Assembly (NCBI GenBank): GCA_937934745.1
Contig: CALGZC010000003.1
Span: forward strand, 1-64,000
Direction of reading: 5' to 3'
DNA: 64,000 nt
Source of the DNA: an uncultured Blastocatellia bacterium
GTDB taxonomy: Bacteria > Acidobacteriota > Blastocatellia > Chloracidobacteriales > Chloracidobacteriaceae
Shown here in pieces: positions 2,704 through 48,219 of the stretch. A program made the translations under genes and the position numbers. A model generated the notes under the pieces. It was not told the origin of the DNA and did not search any database. It saw only the letters and a program-made list of their open reading frames with translations. How positions within the stretch are numbered: the stretch's first letter is position 1; each line of letters starts with the position of its first letter.

Positions 2704-3735
2704 ATGCCTCTGCGGCAAGCCATCCTTGTCGAAGCCTTTGGCGGGCCTGACGCGCTCCGCCTGGTGACAGAAGCGACGCCCGACCTCGGACCGGGTATGC
2801 TCCGCGTCGCGGTGGCGGCCATCGGCGTCAATCGCGCCGACATCCTGCTGCGCGCCGGAGCCTACCATGGCGCGCGTCCGCCGGCGCGTCCCGGACTCGA
2901 AGCGGCCGGCGTTGTGGTTGAATCACAGTCGGCGACCTTTCCCGTCGGCAGTCGCGTGGTGATTTTCGGCCACCGCGCTGGACTCTACGTGACCGAAGCG
3001 GTGGTTGGCGAGTCCGAAGTGGCTGCCGTCCCTGAATCGCTCCCAATAGAGACGGCTGCTGCGCTGCCGATCAACTGGCTGACGGCGTGGTATTGCCTGC
3101 GCCGCCTCATTGAGTTGCAGCCCGATGACACGCTGCTCGTGCCGGCGGCGGCGAGCGGCGTCAGCACGGCGGCCGTCCAGATTGCGCGGCGTATCGGCGC
3201 GAAGGTCATTGCGGCGGCCAGCACGGCGGAAAAGTTAGCCTTCGCCGCGCAGCTTGGCGCGAGCGTGACAGTCAACTACGCTGAGATCAACCTGGCGGAG
3301 GCCATCCGCGACATCACCGACGGACAGGGCGTGACGGCGTTTCTCGATACCGTCGGCGGCCAGACCTTTGCCGACGGTCTCAAGGCGCTAGCCCCATTCG
3401 GGCGCGTGGCGGCGCTGGCCAATGTGACGCTTGAGCCATCGCTCATCAACACCCGGGACTTCTACCCGAAAAACGCGCGGATTTACGGCTTCCAGTTGGG
3501 CAACTTGATGGCGGCCGGGCGCTACCCGGAGGCGCGCGCTGACCTTGAAGCGATTCTGGCGCGCGTGGCAGAGGGGACATTCACCGTCCCCATCGCGCAA
3601 GCCTTTCCGCTGGAAGACGCGGCGGCGGCGCACCGGCGGCTTGAAGGCCGGAATGTCCTCGGCAAGCTCTTACTCCTGACATCTTCCCCGGCCCTAAAAG
3701 CCCGCGATGCCGACGGCGCTCAGACGCAGCCTTGA
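2704..3735 (+). CDS. Zinc-independent MDR-family NADPH:quinone oxidoreductase-like protein
   Basis: The 343-residue product is a medium-chain dehydrogenase/reductase of the quinone oxidoreductase branch. The N-terminal GroES-like half has ILVEAFGGPDALRL and VNRADILLRAGAY, which in this family replaces the zinc-binding Cys residues of true alcohol dehydrogenases. The nucleotide-binding half has AAASGVSTAAVQIARRIGAKV and a later DTVGGQTF, as in QorA-type enzymes that reduce quinones or enones with NADPH. I placed the start at ATG 2704 because family homology begins there; the frame is open upstream to 2629 but without homology. It stands alone between a divergent sensor gene and a convergent protease gene. 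The substrate cannot be deduced. Confidence 0.88.
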   Translation: MPLRQAILVEAFGGPDALRLVTEATPDLGPGMLRVAVAAIGVNRADILLRAGAYHGARPPARPGLEAAGVVVESQSATFPVGSRVVIFGHRAGLYVTEAVVGESEVAAVPESLPIETAAALPINWLTAWYCLRRLIELQPDDTLLVPAAASGVSTAAVQIARRIGAKVIAAASTAEKLAFAAQLGASVTVNYAEINLAEAIRDITDGQGVTAFLDTVGGQTFADGLKALAPFGRVAALANVTLEPSLINTRDFYPKNARIYGFQLGNLMAAGRYPEARADLEAILARVAEGTFTVPIAQAFPLEDAAAAHRRLEGRNVLGKLLLLTSSPALKARDADGAQTQP

Positions 3736-6745: not shown

Positions 6746-7534
6746 TCAAGCATGGGCCTGCTCGTCATCGTGGCCGTGGTCGTCATGCGGCACAGTTTCA
6801 CTGAGATAGATAATGGCCAACTGAACGAAAATAAACGTCTGTACGACAGCGACAAAAGTTCCCAACAACATGGGGAACACGGGAACAAGAATGTTGTAGA
6901 TGGTGCCAAAGGCAATGCCGAGTTGTTCATCAACAAACATGTTGATCATAAGACGCAGTGCTAACGTCGCCGGGCGAATGGCATTGCTGAACATTTCAAA
7001 GATAAAAATGATGCCGCCCATGATCGCCATCAGGCCTGCCGTCAGCCCACCTGTGAAATGCTTCAGGTAGCCGAGGCCCTGCTGCGCAAACCCCATAAAC
7101 ATGTAGTAGATAAACGTCATCAGCCCCAGCGCCAACGTTACGTTGAAGTTGGCCGTCGGCGACTCAAACAAAGGGAACAGGCCCATCAGATTCGAGGTGA
7201 GAATAAGCGCCGCAAGGGGGAGTAAATAGCTCAAATACTTGAAGCCGTATTTCCCGATGGCCTGCTCAACCATGTCGCGCACTTGCAGGACAATGATTTC
7301 GACCACCTGCTGTCCAAGACTGGGCTGATCCACTGAAGGCTTGCCAACCAACAGTTTGAAGCCGAAAACGCAAATTACGGCCGCAATGAGAAGCATGATC
7401 ACGTGACCCGGCAATTCCCGGTCTGAAAGTCCTGTCAAGTGGTGGATTTGCTCGACTAACCACGGATGTGGGTGTGCGGCCCCCTCATCGGCCACGGCCA
7501 GAAACAAAGGCAATGCTGTCGTGAAGACTGTCAT
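6746..7534 (-). CDS. atpB: F-type ATP synthase subunit a
   Basis: The 262-residue membrane protein forms the ion half-channels of Fo. It has about five to six hydrophobic helices, the segment LILTSNLMGLFP characteristic of subunit a, and the essential stator arginine at Arg194 within RPATLALRLMINM. The C terminus is His/Asp rich (HDDHGHDDEQAHA), an odd but harmless tail that could bind metal. It sits between atpI (23 bases upstream) and atpE. The genes for b, delta, alpha, gamma, beta and epsilon are not in the window, so the operon is split in this genome. Confidence 0.96.
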   Translation of the reverse strand: MTVFTTALPLFLAVADEGAAHPHPWLVEQIHHLTGLSDRELPGHVIMLLIAAVICVFGFKLLVGKPSVDQPSLGQQVVEIIVLQVRDMVEQAIGKYGFKYLSYLLPLAALILTSNLMGLFPLFESPTANFNVTLALGLMTFIYYMFMGFAQQGLGYLKHFTGGLTAGLMAIMGGIIFIFEMFSNAIRPATLALRLMINMFVDEQLGIAFGTIYNILVPVFPMLLGTFVAVVQTFIFVQLAIIYLSETVPHDDHGHDDEQAHA

Positions 7535-8010: not shown

Positions 8011-9405
8011 TCATCCTTCAACCGACTCAGACGCGGACGTCTCGTTCGGCTCAGACGCCGAAGTTTTCCCTGGACGACGCAATCCAAACTTGTCCAGCCG
8101 ATACTGTAAGGTGCGGAACGTCATTCCGAGCAGCTTCGCTGCACGGGTGATGTTCCAGTCGGTTCTTTCCATCGCCTGGAGAATTAGTGAACGCTCCACT
8201 TCTTCGACCGACACACCTTCCGATGGAAGTGAAAACGGGGCAGATTGTGCCGGTGCAGCTTCCAGGTCACCCGTTGCCCGTAAGATTTCCTCCGGTAAAT
8301 GATGGACGTCAATCGTATCCCCCTCACACATCAGGACGGCCCGTTTGATTGCCGATTCGAGCTGTCGGACGTTGCCAGGCCAGTCGTAAGCCTGTAGGAC
8401 GCGCAACGCTTCCGGCGTCACAGCATAGTGTGTGGCACCGCGCGCCTGCCGCACCAGAAAACGTTCAACCAGCAGTGGGATGTCATCGCGCCGATCACGC
8501 AGGGGAGGCAAGTGAATCGGAATCACGTTGAGCCGGTAATAGAGGTCTTCCCGGAAGGTTTTCTCCTTCACCATCTCTTCCAACGGACGATTGGTTGCCG
8601 CCACCACGCGGACATCAACACGGATGATCTTCGTCGAACCAACCCGCTGCACCTCACCCTCCTGAAGCGCGCGCAAAAGCTTAGCCTGGAGGGTGACGTT
8701 GAGTTCCCCGATCTCGTCCAGAAAGAGCGTCCCCCGGTCGGCGACTTCAAATAAACCTTTCTTTTCGGCAACGGCACCTGTAAAAGCGCCCTTTTCGTGA
8801 CCGAACAGTTCTGATTCAAGGAGGTTTTCATTGATGGCCGCACAGTTGACGACGTGAAACACTTCAGCCACCCGCGGGCTATGCCGATGGAGCGCACGGG
8901 CGACCAATTCTTTACCCGTTCCGCTTTCGCCTCGAACCAGAACGGTTTCATCCGAAGCTGCCACTTTGAGAATAAGCTTCTTGAGCTTCTGCATTGGCTC
9001 GCTAAAACCTATTAGGTCGTCATCCAACGCATCAAGGCGTGCCAGGGACTGTGCCACCACAGCCAGCAAACGTTCGCAGTCCAGGGGTTTTTCAAGGTAA
9101 TCCACTGCTCCCAAGCGCAGGGCATGTTTGACGGATTCAATTGAGCCGTGCGCCGTCATGAGGATCACCAGTTGCGACGGATCGGACTGGGTTAGGGCGC
9201 GCAGCAAGTCCAGTCCACTTTGCCCTCCCATTTTCAGATCGGTGAGTACCAAGTCGAAACGTTCAGTCTTGGTCACTCGCAGGGCAGCTTCGGCGCTCGG
9301 GGCCGTTGCCGTCCGGTACCCCTCGGCAGCCAGAATCATGTCGAGGATGTCACGCTGATTCTTTTCGTCATCCACAATGAGAATGCTGCGTTTCGACGGC
9401 CTCAT
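8011..9405 (-). CDS. NtrC-family sigma-54-dependent response regulator
   Basis: The 464-residue protein has the three NtrC modules. The receiver (6-120) holds the acidic pocket VDDE and phospho-acceptor Asp56 (LVLTDLKMGG). The AAA+ domain has Walker A GESGTGKE (159-166), the sigma-54 contact loop GAFTGA (206-211), Walker B TLFLDEIGE, and the arginine finger region REDLYYRLNV. A Fis-type helix-turn-helix closes the protein (WNITRAAKLLGMTFRTLQYRL, about 425-445). It activates sigma-54 promoters after phosphorylation. No histidine kinase gene adjoins it, so its signal is unknown. A consensus sigma-54 promoter exists in the window at pilA, but a link to this regulator is only a guess. It starts 4 bases after the dnaE fragment stops. 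Confidence 0.95.
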   Translation of the reverse strand: MRPSKRSILIVDDEKNQRDILDMILAAEGYRTATAPSAEAALRVTKTERFDLVLTDLKMGGQSGLDLLRALTQSDPSQLVILMTAHGSIESVKHALRLGAVDYLEKPLDCERLLAVVAQSLARLDALDDDLIGFSEPMQKLKKLILKVAASDETVLVRGESGTGKELVARALHRHSPRVAEVFHVVNCAAINENLLESELFGHEKGAFTGAVAEKKGLFEVADRGTLFLDEIGELNVTLQAKLLRALQEGEVQRVGSTKIIRVDVRVVAATNRPLEEMVKEKTFREDLYYRLNVIPIHLPPLRDRRDDIPLLVERFLVRQARGATHYAVTPEALRVLQAYDWPGNVRQLESAIKRAVLMCEGDTIDVHHLPEEILRATGDLEAAPAQSAPFSLPSEGVSVEEVERSLILQAMERTDWNITRAAKLLGMTFRTLQYRLDKFGLRRPGKTSASEPNETSASESVEG

Positions 9406-9409
9406 CTTG

Positions 9410-12112
9410 TCAGGCTCCTACCGGCACCTGGGCTGGCTCCGCCTTGACCACGGCGGGGTGGACATCTTCCCAGCTCTCCGACCGGTTCAGCGGATCATGA
9501 CAGGCATAAAGCGCTAGACCACGTTCGAGAATCTCCCGCAGGGGTAGGAAGGCATCGCTGCCATCTGGCAACCGGGTATAGAACTTGTGGTCCAATGTGC
9601 AGCGCAGCGTTCGCCCATCGTCCAGTTCGACTTCGACGACCTCTTTTTCACCGGTCGGAAAAACCTCGATCAGTTCATTGATCACCACCGACTGACCATC
9701 CCAACTGTAGGTTCTCAACCGCGCATCTGTCCGTGACCTGCCCTGTTCGGCCAGCGCCGCCACGGTCACGTATTCGCCCGTCACGGCATCGCGCACCATT
9801 GCATCGCCGGTCACGCACTTATTAAACGCATAGTCGGCAAAGCCTTCGAGTTGTTGCCAAAGCTTTTCAAGTTTCGCGCGGTCATGGCCGCGCTCAACGG
9901 CCTGAGCAATAAACTTGGCCCTGTGCGCATCGAGCTCCTCGCGCTTTTTCTTCCCCATGGCGCGGCGCACCAGGTCAGCCTCACCGAGTGAGTAGCCGGC
10001 TAAGCGCTGGAAAATCGCCATGATCTGTTCCTGAAAGACCGGCACACCGTAGGTGTTCTCCAGGACATCCTTCAGTTCCTTGAAGTCGTAGGTGACACGC
10101 CGCCGTCCATGTCGGCGCTCGATGTAGTCCTCCACCATTCCCGAATCGAGCGGGCCCGGCCGGTACAGTGCGTTAAGGGCAACGATGTCGTCCAAACCAC
10201 TTGGCTTGAGTCGCCGGGCAATTTCGCTGATACCATCACCCTCAAACTGAAACACAGCATCCGTCAGGCCGTCACTAAAGATCTTGAGCGCCGCCGGGTC
10301 GTCGGTGGGAATCGCCGTCAGGTCGGGGCGCTGCCCGGTTTCCTTTTCGATGTTGGCCAGACAGTCCTCGATGATGGTCAGCGTTGTCAGCCCAAGAAAG
10401 TCCATCTTGAGCATGCCGGCCTTTTCGAGGTCGGTCATGTTGTACTGCGTCGCAATGACTTCGACTTCACCGCGTTCGCGGTCGCGGGCCTTGGTTTTGA
10501 AGACGGGCACCAGCTCGTACACCGGGCGCGGTGAAATCACCACACCGGCAGCGTGAATGGACGAATGCCGTGCGCCGCCCTCCAGTCGCCGTGCCAAGTC
10601 AATCAGGCGCTTGACCTCCGGGCGTTTTTCGTAAGCTTCCCTCAACTCCGGGACCATCCTGAGCGCCTCGGCAATGGAAACATTGCGCCCGCGCTGGGGT
10701 GGTGGAATGAGCTTGGCGATTTTTTCAACCTCCGGGTAGGGCATTTCCAACACGCGCCCGACATCTTTGATGACCGCCCGCGAGGCCATTGTCCCGAAAG
10801 TCGCAATCTGCGAAACATTTTCGCGTCCGTACAACTGACTGACGTACTCAATGACCGCGCTGCGCCCACGCATGCAAAAGTCCACGTCAATGTCGGGCAT
10901 CGAAACGCGCTCCGGGTTGAGAAACCGTTCAAAGAGCAGGTTATGGGTGATCGGGTCCACATCAGTGATATGGAGGGCATAGGCGACCAGTGATCCAGCC
11001 GCACTACCGCGTCCCGGCCCAACGGGAATCCCGCGCTCTCGCGCATGGCGGATGAAATCCCACACGATCAGGAAATACCCCTCATACCCCATGCGCTCGA
11101 TGACGTTGATTTCGTACTCAAGTCGCGCCTGGTATTTTTGTGCGTCTGTGGGGCGAATCTGGCGCAGTCGCTCCTCAAGGCCACGGCGGGTGACGCTTTC
11201 AAAGTAACTCGTCAGCGTAAAGCCTTCCGGCACGGGGAACACAGGCAGGTAGTTGGGCGACTTGCCGAACTCAAAGGTGCACATGTCGGCAATCCGCAGC
11301 GTGTTGCGCAGTGCCTCCGGGTTTTCATTCCCCCACAGCGCCCACATTTCCTGGGGGCTTTTCACATAATGATCGGGTGAATAATGCCAACCTGCCTCGC
11401 GGAGCGGCTTGCCGGTCTTGAGGCACAGCAAAATCTGATGCGCTTCGTGATCGGCTTCTGTCAGAAAGTGGGCGTCGTTAGTGACGACCAACGGCACATC
11501 TAACCGGGCGGCCATCTCGGTCAGCGCGCGGTTGACTTTCGTCTGCTTTTCTTCAAAGCCCCGGTGTGACTGAAGTTCGAGGAAATAGTGGCCGCGTCCG
11601 AAGATTTCATTGTATTCGCCGATCTCACACTTGGCGCGCTCCGGTTTATCACTCAGAATGAGCGATGCCGGAACACCGGACATACAGGCAGACAGCGCAA
11701 CCAGTCCTGCGCGGTGCGCGTGGAGAACTTCTTTGTCAATGCGTGGATTGTAGTAGTACCCTTCGGTGTAGCCAAGTGACGCCAGCTTGACGAGGTTTTT
11801 GTACCCCGTTTCATCCTTCGCCAGCAGGATCAGGTGGTTCGTACCGCGCTCGCCATCCGTGTCGGGCCGGCCGCGGTCATGGCGCGAGCCACGGGCCACA
11901 TAGGCTTCCATGCCGATGATGGGCTTGACCCCAACCTTTTTCATGGCGGCCGCGAAGCCCATAGCACCGAACATATTGCCGTGATCGGTGACGGCTACCG
12001 CTGTCAAGCCCAGACGTCGGGCTCGTTCGGCCAGCGCACCGTGCTGAATGGCTCCGTCGAGCAAGCTGTAGTCAGAGTGCAGATGTAAGTGCACAAAATC
12101 CTGGGTCGCCAT
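9410..12112 (-). CDS. dnaE: DNA polymerase III alpha subunit, N-terminal fragment ending in an intein N-terminal half
   Basis: The 900-residue product begins as a normal replicative DnaE: PHP domain (HLHLHSDYSLLDG, 8-20), palm with the catalytic pair Asp407 and Asp409 in MPDIDVDF (405-412), PGRGSAAGSLVAY (367-378) and the fingers up to LEGFADYAFNK (ending at 765). In ordinary DnaE this is followed by SHSAAYA and about 400 more residues. Here Cys766 starts an intein splicing domain of 135 residues and the frame then ends with TGA at 9412-9410. The next gene starts 4 bases later in full coding density, so neither the C-terminal intein nor the C-extein is here. The protein could work only after trans-splicing with a partner made elsewhere. 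Start ATG 12112 has AGGAGAG just upstream. I see no frameshift or degeneration; the polymerase motifs are intact. Confidence 0.95.
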   Translation of the reverse strand: MATQDFVHLHLHSDYSLLDGAIQHGALAERARRLGLTAVAVTDHGNMFGAMGFAAAMKKVGVKPIIGMEAYVARGSRHDRGRPDTDGERGTNHLILLAKDETGYKNLVKLASLGYTEGYYYNPRIDKEVLHAHRAGLVALSACMSGVPASLILSDKPERAKCEIGEYNEIFGRGHYFLELQSHRGFEEKQTKVNRALTEMAARLDVPLVVTNDAHFLTEADHEAHQILLCLKTGKPLREAGWHYSPDHYVKSPQEMWALWGNENPEALRNTLRIADMCTFEFGKSPNYLPVFPVPEGFTLTSYFESVTRRGLEERLRQIRPTDAQKYQARLEYEINVIERMGYEGYFLIVWDFIRHARERGIPVGPGRGSAAGSLVAYALHITDVDPITHNLLFERFLNPERVSMPDIDVDFCMRGRSAVIEYVSQLYGRENVSQIATFGTMASRAVIKDVGRVLEMPYPEVEKIAKLIPPPQRGRNVSIAEALRMVPELREAYEKRPEVKRLIDLARRLEGGARHSSIHAAGVVISPRPVYELVPVFKTKARDRERGEVEVIATQYNMTDLEKAGMLKMDFLGLTTLTIIEDCLANIEKETGQRPDLTAIPTDDPAALKIFSDGLTDAVFQFEGDGISEIARRLKPSGLDDIVALNALYRPGPLDSGMVEDYIERRHGRRRVTYDFKELKDVLENTYGVPVFQEQIMAIFQRLAGYSLGEADLVRRAMGKKKREELDAHRAKFIAQAVERGHDRAKLEKLWQQLEGFADYAFNKCVTGDAMVRDAVTGEYVTVAALAEQGRSRTDARLRTYSWDGQSVVINELIEVFPTGEKEVVEVELDDGRTLRCTLDHKFYTRLPDGSDAFLPLREILERGLALYACHDPLNRSESWEDVHPAVVKAEPAQVPVGA
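9413..9817 (-). other. Split-intein N-terminal fragment (N-int) within dnaE
   Basis: The first intein residue is Cys766 (codon 9817-9815). Block A reads CVTGDAMVRD, the classic start of Hint-domain inteins. Block B reads GRTLRCTLDHKFYT, with the conserved T-x-x-H (Thr and His of TLDH) that activates the N-terminal splice junction. Blocks F and G (the C-terminal His-Asn and the +1 nucleophile) are missing, and there is no LAGLIDADG or other endonuclease motif. The N-int is about 135 residues, against about 102 in the best-known cyanobacterial DnaE N-int. The expected +1 residue of the missing C-extein is Ser (FNK/SHS), an allowed intein nucleophile. Confidence 0.92.
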
Positions 12113-46672: not shown

Positions 46673-48219
46673 CGACTTATGTGTGGCTGCGCGCTTGCGG
46701 TCTGCTGCTTCATCCGACTTCTCTTCCCGGGCCTGACGGCATCGGCGTGCTTGATGGCCACGTTGAACACTTTCTTGATTTCCTGACAGCCGCGGGCCAG
46801 ACCTACTGGCAAATCCTCCCTCTTGTCCCAACCGGCTATGGGGACTCCCCGTACGCCGGGCTGTCGGCCTTTGCCGGGAATCCGTTGCTCATTGCTGCCG
46901 AAACCCTCGTTGAGATGGGGCTGATTCCACGTGAGCGTTTGCACACCCGTCCTCAGTTTCCTGCCGACCGTGTAGACTACGGCACCGTTATCCCGTGGAA
47001 ACAGGCATTGCTGGCAGAGGCATTTGAGCGGTTTGCTACCGGCGCTCCAACCGCCTGGCGAACCGACCTGGAGACATTCTGCCGCACTGAGGCCTACTGG
47101 CTGGATGACTATGCACAGTATCGCGCCCTAAAAGACGCCCACGACAACCGTCCCTGGCATACCTGGCCAACTGCGCTGCGCGACCGCGACCCGACGGCGC
47201 TTACGAGCGCCTTGCGTGAACTCGGCAAGGCTGTCGCCGCCCAACAGTTTCAGCAATGGCTTTTTTTCAAGCAGTGGCAGCGGGTTCGTACCGCCTGCCG
47301 GAAACGCGGCATTCGTATCATCGGCGACGCACCGATCTTCGTCGCTTATGATTCGGCGGATGTCTGGGCTAACCGCGCACTGTTCAAACTCGACGCGGAC
47401 GGTCGTCCAACACACGTCGCCGGTGTTCCACCTGACTACTTTAGTCCCACAGGTCAACGCTGGGGTAATCCGCTCTACAACTGGCAGCGAATGGCGGCAG
47501 ACGGCTTCACGTGGTGGCTGTCCCGCATGCGCCACCTGTTCGGGTTGGTGGACGTTGTTCGCCTCGATCACTTCCGAGGTTTTGCTGCCTGTTGGAGCAT
47601 CCCGGCCAAAGCGCCGACTGCCGCCACCGGTCGGTGGGTCAAAACACCGGGACATAAGCTCTTCACCGCGATGAAAAAAACCTTCGCCCTGCTCCCCATC
47701 ATCGCCGAAGACTTGGGAGTGATTACCCCTGACGTGACGCGCCTGCGCGACGATTTTGGATTTCCCGGTATGCGCGTACTCCAGTTTGCCTTCGGTGGCG
47801 ACCCCCAAAGTCACGACCTACCGCACAACCACGTTGTAAACGCCGTTGTCTATACCGGCACCCACGACAACGATACAACTGTCGGCTGGTATGCCAGCCG
47901 CCCCGGCGTCAGCTCAACCCGTGAAGCGGAGACCATTGAGCGTGAACGGGCCTTCTGCCGGAGGTATCTCAACAGTGACGGAGTGGAAATTCACTGGGAT
48001 TTTATTCGCGCAGCCTACGCAAGTGTGGCGCATACGGCCATTGTGCCGGTGCAGGACGTCCTCGGCTTGGGCAGCGAAGGACGGATGAACCTCCCGGCCA
48101 GCGAGCGCGGCAACTGGGCGTGGCGTTGTCAAGTAGACAACCTGACAACGGCAAAAGCAACACGCTTACGTGAGCTGGCGTGGTTATACGGTCGGTTACC
48201 TAGCAACACCGCTTTGTAG
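46669..48219 (+). CDS. malQ: 4-alpha-glucanotransferase (amylomaltase)
   Basis: The 516-residue GH77 enzyme transfers maltodextrin segments in glycogen and maltose metabolism. The start GTG at 46669 overlaps the upstream stop (GTGA). It begins RACGLLLHPTSLPGPDGIGVLDG and has SPYAGLSAFAGNPLLI, the nucleophile Asp in VDVVRLDHFRGF, the acid/base Glu in IIAEDLGVI and the third Asp in TGTHDNDTTVGW. The length and motif order are standard for the short bacterial form. Confidence 0.95.
   Translation: MTTYVWLRACGLLLHPTSLPGPDGIGVLDGHVEHFLDFLTAAGQTYWQILPLVPTGYGDSPYAGLSAFAGNPLLIAAETLVEMGLIPRERLHTRPQFPADRVDYGTVIPWKQALLAEAFERFATGAPTAWRTDLETFCRTEAYWLDDYAQYRALKDAHDNRPWHTWPTALRDRDPTALTSALRELGKAVAAQQFQQWLFFKQWQRVRTACRKRGIRIIGDAPIFVAYDSADVWANRALFKLDADGRPTHVAGVPPDYFSPTGQRWGNPLYNWQRMAADGFTWWLSRMRHLFGLVDVVRLDHFRGFAACWSIPAKAPTAATGRWVKTPGHKLFTAMKKTFALLPIIAEDLGVITPDVTRLRDDFGFPGMRVLQFAFGGDPQSHDLPHNHVVNAVVYTGTHDNDTTVGWYASRPGVSSTREAETIERERAFCRRYLNSDGVEIHWDFIRAAYASVAHTAIVPVQDVLGLGSEGRMNLPASERGNWAWRCQVDNLTTAKATRLRELAWLYGRLPSNTAL

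Follow-up and report, generated by a model that had tools for sequence, protein, structure and literature searches.

The replicase gene dnaE at the end of which an intein fragment lies was examined in the window, that is, the whole stretch of 64,000 nucleotides analysed here, which belongs to a Chloracidobacterium genome (G000) assembled as a draft of 73 contigs. We conclude that this gene is very probably the N-half of a split, trans-splicing DnaE replicase whose partner lies on another contig of the same genome.

Two dnaE half genes with an intein fragment on each

The dnaE frame in the window (9410..12112, minus strand, 900 aa) has PHP, polymerase III alpha and finger domains. Its N-extein of 765 aa (9818..12112, minus strand), the sole DnaE N-half of the genome, ends in ...LEGFADYAFNK and is followed at the end of the gene by an intein N-fragment of 135 aa (IntN; 9413..9817, minus strand). 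The translation across the junction reads ...FADYAFNK|CVTGDAMVRDAVTGEY..., the vertical bar marking the border between extein and intein. IntN begins with the nucleophile Cys1 (FNK|CVTGD) and contains the block B motif T-x-x-H as CTLDH. The intein N-terminal model TIGR01445 matched IntN (E = 4.6e-9; 42 bits genome-wide, cut-off 24.5) and gave no other intein N-domain match in the genome. A profile match to PDB entries of split DnaE inteins from cyanobacteria reached E 2.8e-12. The stop codon of the N-half (9410..9412, minus strand) stands 4 bases before the start, at 9405, of a gene for an NtrC-type response regulator (8011..9405, minus strand), a neighbour outside the intein, and no C-intein or C-extein was found after the N-half within the window. 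An earlier sequence-only reading had described these same features, namely a dnaE frame ending in an intein N-domain with Cys1 and TxxH, a stop just ahead of the next gene and no C-terminal part downstream, and all of them were confirmed.

The missing part was detected elsewhere in the genome. A generic DnaE C-extein query matched at one place, contig C11 47540-47935, inside a gene (46739-48055, minus strand; ORF 46742-48055) that encodes a C-intein of 40 aa (IntC) fused to a C-extein of 398 aa with HhH and OB domains. IntC occupies about 6937-7056 (minus strand) of the extracted locus L004. Read from its conserved ATG, the ORF is MSLREINIVRVTPAGTAPTYNLTMRAPYHNYFINGILTAN|SHSVCYGILAYRTAYL..., and the C-extein begins SHSVCYG. 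IntC, at the start of the gene, contains blocks F and G, ends in a terminal Asn and is followed by Ser+1 (...YHNYFINGILTAN|SHS, the last residues before SHSVCYG being FINGILTAN). The sequence-only reading had anticipated a short C-intein ending in His-Asn and fused to an extein starting SHS; the fusion and the SHS were there, and the C-intein ends in Ala-Asn instead. On the PRK05673 model the N-half reaches position 752 and the C-half starts from 752, so the halves abut without overlap. Joined from FNK to SHS, the exteins read like the unbroken DnaE of relatives that lack the intein (FNRSHS in G271 and G350, FNKSHS in G010). In these sequence features the pair agrees with a naturally split intein of class 1. 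No second replicase gene was found in the genome, where PF07733 matched once and the searches returned one N-half and one C-half; a complete, intein-free second dnaE, which had been considered earlier, did not turn up. With a partner in the same genome and a single replicase gene, the earlier suggestion of a probable split-intein replicase is upheld.

We propose that dnaE-N::IntN and IntC::dnaE-C would make two separate proteins, and that the acidic IntN would pair with the basic IntC to form one Hint domain. Cys1 would then attack the FNK|C bond, the acyl chain would pass to the Ser+1 residue of the SHS motif, IntC's terminal Asn would cyclise, and ligation of the exteins as ...FADYAFNK-SHSVCYG... 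would yield a whole alpha subunit some 1,163 aa long. The binding of the halves, their trans-splicing and the need of the cell for splicing are what we infer from the sequences.

Conservation, selection and charge

One IntN-ending N-half and one IntC-led C-half were observed in all seven Chloracidobacterium genomes, i.e. G000 and six congeners. The genes flanking each half are common to the genus genomes compared, the NtrC-type regulator adjoining the N-half in G003 and G006 too, and the separation of the two halves therefore looks older than the divergence within Chloracidobacterium. Three of the congeners are assembled in two contigs each (3.7 Mb in total, larger contig 2.64-2.68 Mb). In all three both halves lie on the larger contig (C1), at a spacing of 1.43, 1.44 and 0.72 Mb, which does not support the earlier idea that they might sit on different replicons; we reject it. 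No free-standing endonuclease gene between the halves was found in the Chloracidobacterium genomes searched.

Within the genus the N-extein had a mean pN/pS of 0.11, the IntN core (about 9494-9817, minus strand) one of 0.27, and IntC and the C-extein 0.21 each; the ratio rose to 0.75 in the fast-evolving IntN tail past residue about 112 (9413-9493, minus strand). Judged by the low ratios of the IntN core and IntC, purifying selection acts on both intein fragments and the tail drifts. These values, and the same structure in six congeners, speak against both chance and decay as the source of the fragment; the sequence-only reading, too, had seen no decay. IntN is acidic and IntC basic in 15 of 15 acidobacterial loci (net charge -10 and +2 in the pair studied here); such opposite charges are also a trait of known split DnaE inteins. 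In G006 (locus L040) IntN is longer, with some 15-20 additional residues inserted between its blocks A and B.

A contiguous relative and its predicted fold

A relative of the split pair occurs in one piece in G008. Its dnaE ORF of 1,670 aa (L033 1563-6575, minus strand) contains, at an FNK|SHS-type site, a contiguous intein of 160 aa in which the IntN and IntC parts are fused. We modelled this homologue in place of the split pair, and it is predicted to adopt the Hint fold (mean pLDDT 90, pTM 0.83). The first PDB match of the model in Foldseek was the Ssp DnaE intein (E 6.6e-10, TM 0.83, 24% identity), with other inteins next, and cyanobacterial DnaE inteins were also the first matches of the family profiles. 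The G008 version thus resembles the contiguous DnaE mini-inteins and sits at the same site as the split intein; whereas those are cis-splicing and encoded in one ORF, the Chloracidobacterium intein is split between blocks B and F. A break between these blocks is the usual natural split position and coincides with the position of the endonuclease (PMC11923092).

The linker of the G008 intein, read out of frame (SPPAAWKHLVNTL; L033 about 2860-2935, minus strand), is weakly like the start of the nuclease described below, and might be a scar of re-fusion. A second, contiguous intein of 341-418 aa was seen earlier in dnaE of G008, G009 and G510 (L033, L032 and L081/L091), with the borders FG|C...HN|C(T/V)YQEQ. 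That of G008 carries an in-frame LAGLIDADG domain. This second intein is absent from Chloracidobacterium.

Comparison with the cyanobacterial split DnaE inteins

The cyanobacterial split DnaE inteins Ssp and Npu were reportedly described by Wu et al. in 1998 and by Caspi et al. in 2003. They share with the Chloracidobacterium intein the host enzyme, the dispersed genes, an IntN of 100+ aa, an IntC of about 36-40 aa, Cys1 and charge-complementary halves, and they are its closest match in solved fold and in profile. Their insertion site, Y|CFNK, lies four residues upstream of the FNK|SHS of Chloracidobacterium, so that the Chloracidobacterium intein is an allele distinct from the cyanobacterial one. 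It also differs in having Ser+1 and not Cys+1, in belonging to another phylum, in its low identity to Ssp (about 24% in the structural match of the G008 model) and in having relatives at FNK|SHS that include contiguous forms and forms with a free-standing nuclease. The cyanobacterial-type pattern recognised at the outset accordingly stands as regards the split DnaE and the dispersed genes and does not stand as regards the allele. A scan of public named genomes for the allele gave only acidobacterial loci among the matches listed. A DnaE of Desulfonema that occupies two neighbouring frames (PMC6390638) was set aside; according to its authors it is not a split-intein case.

Other states of the site in the class

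We surveyed 162 genomes of the class and found strong IntN matches in 15 of them, with five layouts at the site. In G008 the intein is contiguous. In G343, G510, G486, G489 and G490 it is fractured: DnaE-IntN is followed by a LAGLIDADG_3 ORF of 268-270 aa and then by IntC-DnaE. The nuclease is read in a different frame from IntN; its start codon lies within the IntN tail, and its stop codon shares bases with the ATG of IntC (TTTATGA or TCTATGA). Strong matches to this free-standing nuclease were found in only these 5 of the 162 genomes. In G018 the nuclease is lost and the halves are 21 bases apart; the overlapping frame there, MPRTAWNKRLTPEIEERITRYL*, is a 22-codon remnant in which the beginning of the nuclease is linked directly to its end. 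In G009 a Uma2-family gene (PF05685; L032 2727-3440, minus strand) takes the place of the homing endonuclease between the halves, and its end, TAATG, overlaps the IntC start; a dnaE ORF of this locus is at L032 3466-7392, minus strand. Possibly it is a new kind of intein-associated nuclease. The dispersed layout is that of Chloracidobacterium. The site is empty in G271 and G350, which belong to a neighbouring family of the same order. IntC begins at the equivalent Met-led position in all split forms.

Fractured genes, i.e. split inteins with an intervening homing endonuclease, were reportedly described by Dassa et al. in 2009. The order IntN gene, nuclease gene, IntC gene in the five fractured acidobacterial loci is the same arrangement, and so is the layout in the phage contigs L099, L160, L161, L163 and L164. 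The present case differs in that the host gene is a cellular replicase and the intervening genes are of the LAGLIDADG_3 or Uma2 kind, not Vsr-like, and in that Chloracidobacterium has no nuclease and has dispersed halves.

These phage contigs come from IMG/VR, where dnaE is split likewise at the same FNK|SHS-type site. A DUF559/Vsr-like nuclease lies between the phage dnaE halves in L099 (3311-6230) and L160, and LAGLIDADG-type ORFs lie between them in L161, L163 and L164, in which Ser1 replaces Cys1 and of which the L164 ORF is shortened; L120, L162 and L165 are contiguous forms. The phage nucleases are relatives of the acidobacterial one (1.8e-13, in a small pairwise set), which also matches the PHROG 4645 endonuclease (3.9e-49). 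In the intein tree the phage inteins form their own clade, which gives no support to a direct phage source of the acidobacterial intein. A match to the phage record MT835790 was set aside, as it lies in a different, contiguous, non-DnaE ORF.

Alternative explanations of the split gene

Several points weigh against a trans-splicing replicase. Splicing is read from sequence, and a non-covalent complex of the two halves is possible in principle. The penultimate residue of IntC is Ala, not the usual His; Ala at this position is also found in cyanobacterial DnaE inteins. In the alignment, position 4 of block F is Asn (TYN) in 15 of 15 acidobacterial loci, where Asp is usual (PMC4031507). Asn at this position was also seen in the nuclease-bearing copies, and most phage relatives have Asp. 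By the alignment it is an oddity in which a usual, not universal, residue is changed. Finally, G000 is a draft, and the distance between the halves was measured only in relatives. The block F residue and a splicing reaction known from sequence inference would suit a two-subunit polymerase held together non-covalently, with the intein pieces as relics that do not splice, and so would the clean division of the DnaE domains on either side of the break. We consider this improbable. Cys1, TxxH, the block F His, the terminal Asn and Ser+1 are kept in all loci, the fragments are constrained while the IntN tail is not, and the same sequence family occurs in nuclease-bearing, apparently mobile copies, which must splice to be tolerated. 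An uptake of the split DnaE from cyanobacteria of the same hot-spring mats would agree with the dispersed layout common to both groups and with the solved inteins, of which the cyanobacterial split DnaE ones come closest. Against it stand the different insertion site, the grouping of the exteins with other acidobacteria, and the finding that the nearest relatives detected are in other acidobacterial families, including nuclease-bearing and contiguous forms. In the intein tree Npu DnaE, the single cyanobacterial sequence (its letters confirmed in part), has a long branch and is placed, with weak support, outside the clade of the acidobacterial inteins. We regard this origin as slightly less probable still. 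The draft state of the genome might also point to a single normal intein-bearing dnaE broken by misassembly or by a frameshift, the latter considered in the sequence-only reading. However, the halves are on different contigs, each within a contig of >93 kb and with conserved neighbours, and six congeners, of which three are two-contig assemblies, have the same two separate genes; where gene order was compared, it was shared. The congeners already refute this explanation, and its probability is negligible. The trans-splicing replicase therefore remains the favoured account of the two genes.

Origin of the dispersed halves

Between G510 and G489, which belong to different families, the exteins are 54% identical, IntN 77%, IntC 75% and the nuclease 61%. 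The greater likeness of the intein than of its host protein indicates that the intein moved laterally. In the family of the window the inteins resemble each other less than the exteins do (for example 52% vs 67% for G000 and G008), which fits vertical descent without homing. Such sequence identities fit a cycle: the split form that bears a nuclease spreads, and forms without one are inherited. In the route that we propose, the intein would be a mobile element that occupies FNK|SHS in dnaE. Its homing endonuclease, in related families a separate cistron that overlaps both halves, would leave the intein divided between neighbouring genes. Once the nuclease gene was lost, only the split pair would remain, and in the Chloracidobacterium ancestor one of the two genes would have been relocated elsewhere on the same chromosome. 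The chances are about even that the dispersed replicase arose in this way, from a mobile fractured intein through an overlapping nuclease cistron that breaks the intein as it spreads, the later loss of that cistron and a drift of the halves away from each other, that the class preserves each step, and that this is a second origin of dispersed DnaE independent of the cyanobacteria.

The order of these events has points against it: G008 either was never split or was re-fused, the deep branches are weak in both the extein and the intein trees, and the direction from fractured to dispersed is drawn from parsimony and one remnant. A somewhat smaller probability falls to a different route, in which the ancestral intein was contiguous, like that of G008, and its splitting in Chloracidobacterium was an event separate from the one behind the fractured forms with a nuclease. 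G008 belongs to the family of Chloracidobacterium and is sister to G009 in the extein tree, and the poor resolution of the deep intein branches leaves room for this order. Yet G009 itself is split with the Uma2 gene between its halves, the equivalent Met-led start of IntC is shared by all split forms, and G018 shows directly the loss of a nuclease cistron that leaves a bare split pair.

Meaning of the split replicase

Split inteins, split DnaE and fractured genes are known as kinds. What appears to be new is this allele, its host group and the range of states found at a single site. In the literature searched, which excluded many subscription papers and the intein registries, no account of a split intein was found for Chloracidobacterium or for any other acidobacterium. 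The published Chloracidobacterium thermophilum intein (PMC4071816) is rir1-b, in ribonucleotide reductase, not in DnaE. For the cyanobacterial split replicase, reviews of its origin go no further than to propose that a mini-intein was broken (PMC7765530). To the natural split inteins the loci add a new group that has Ser+1 and comes in part from thermophiles; it would be useful for protein ligation. They also place a dispersed split replicase, an arrangement best known from cyanobacteria, in a phototrophic acidobacterium. The permanent splitting of an essential replicase gene is hard to study in cyanobacteria; here the route becomes directly testable, since in a single class the same site is found empty, with a contiguous intein, fractured with the nuclease present, with the nuclease deleted, and dispersed.
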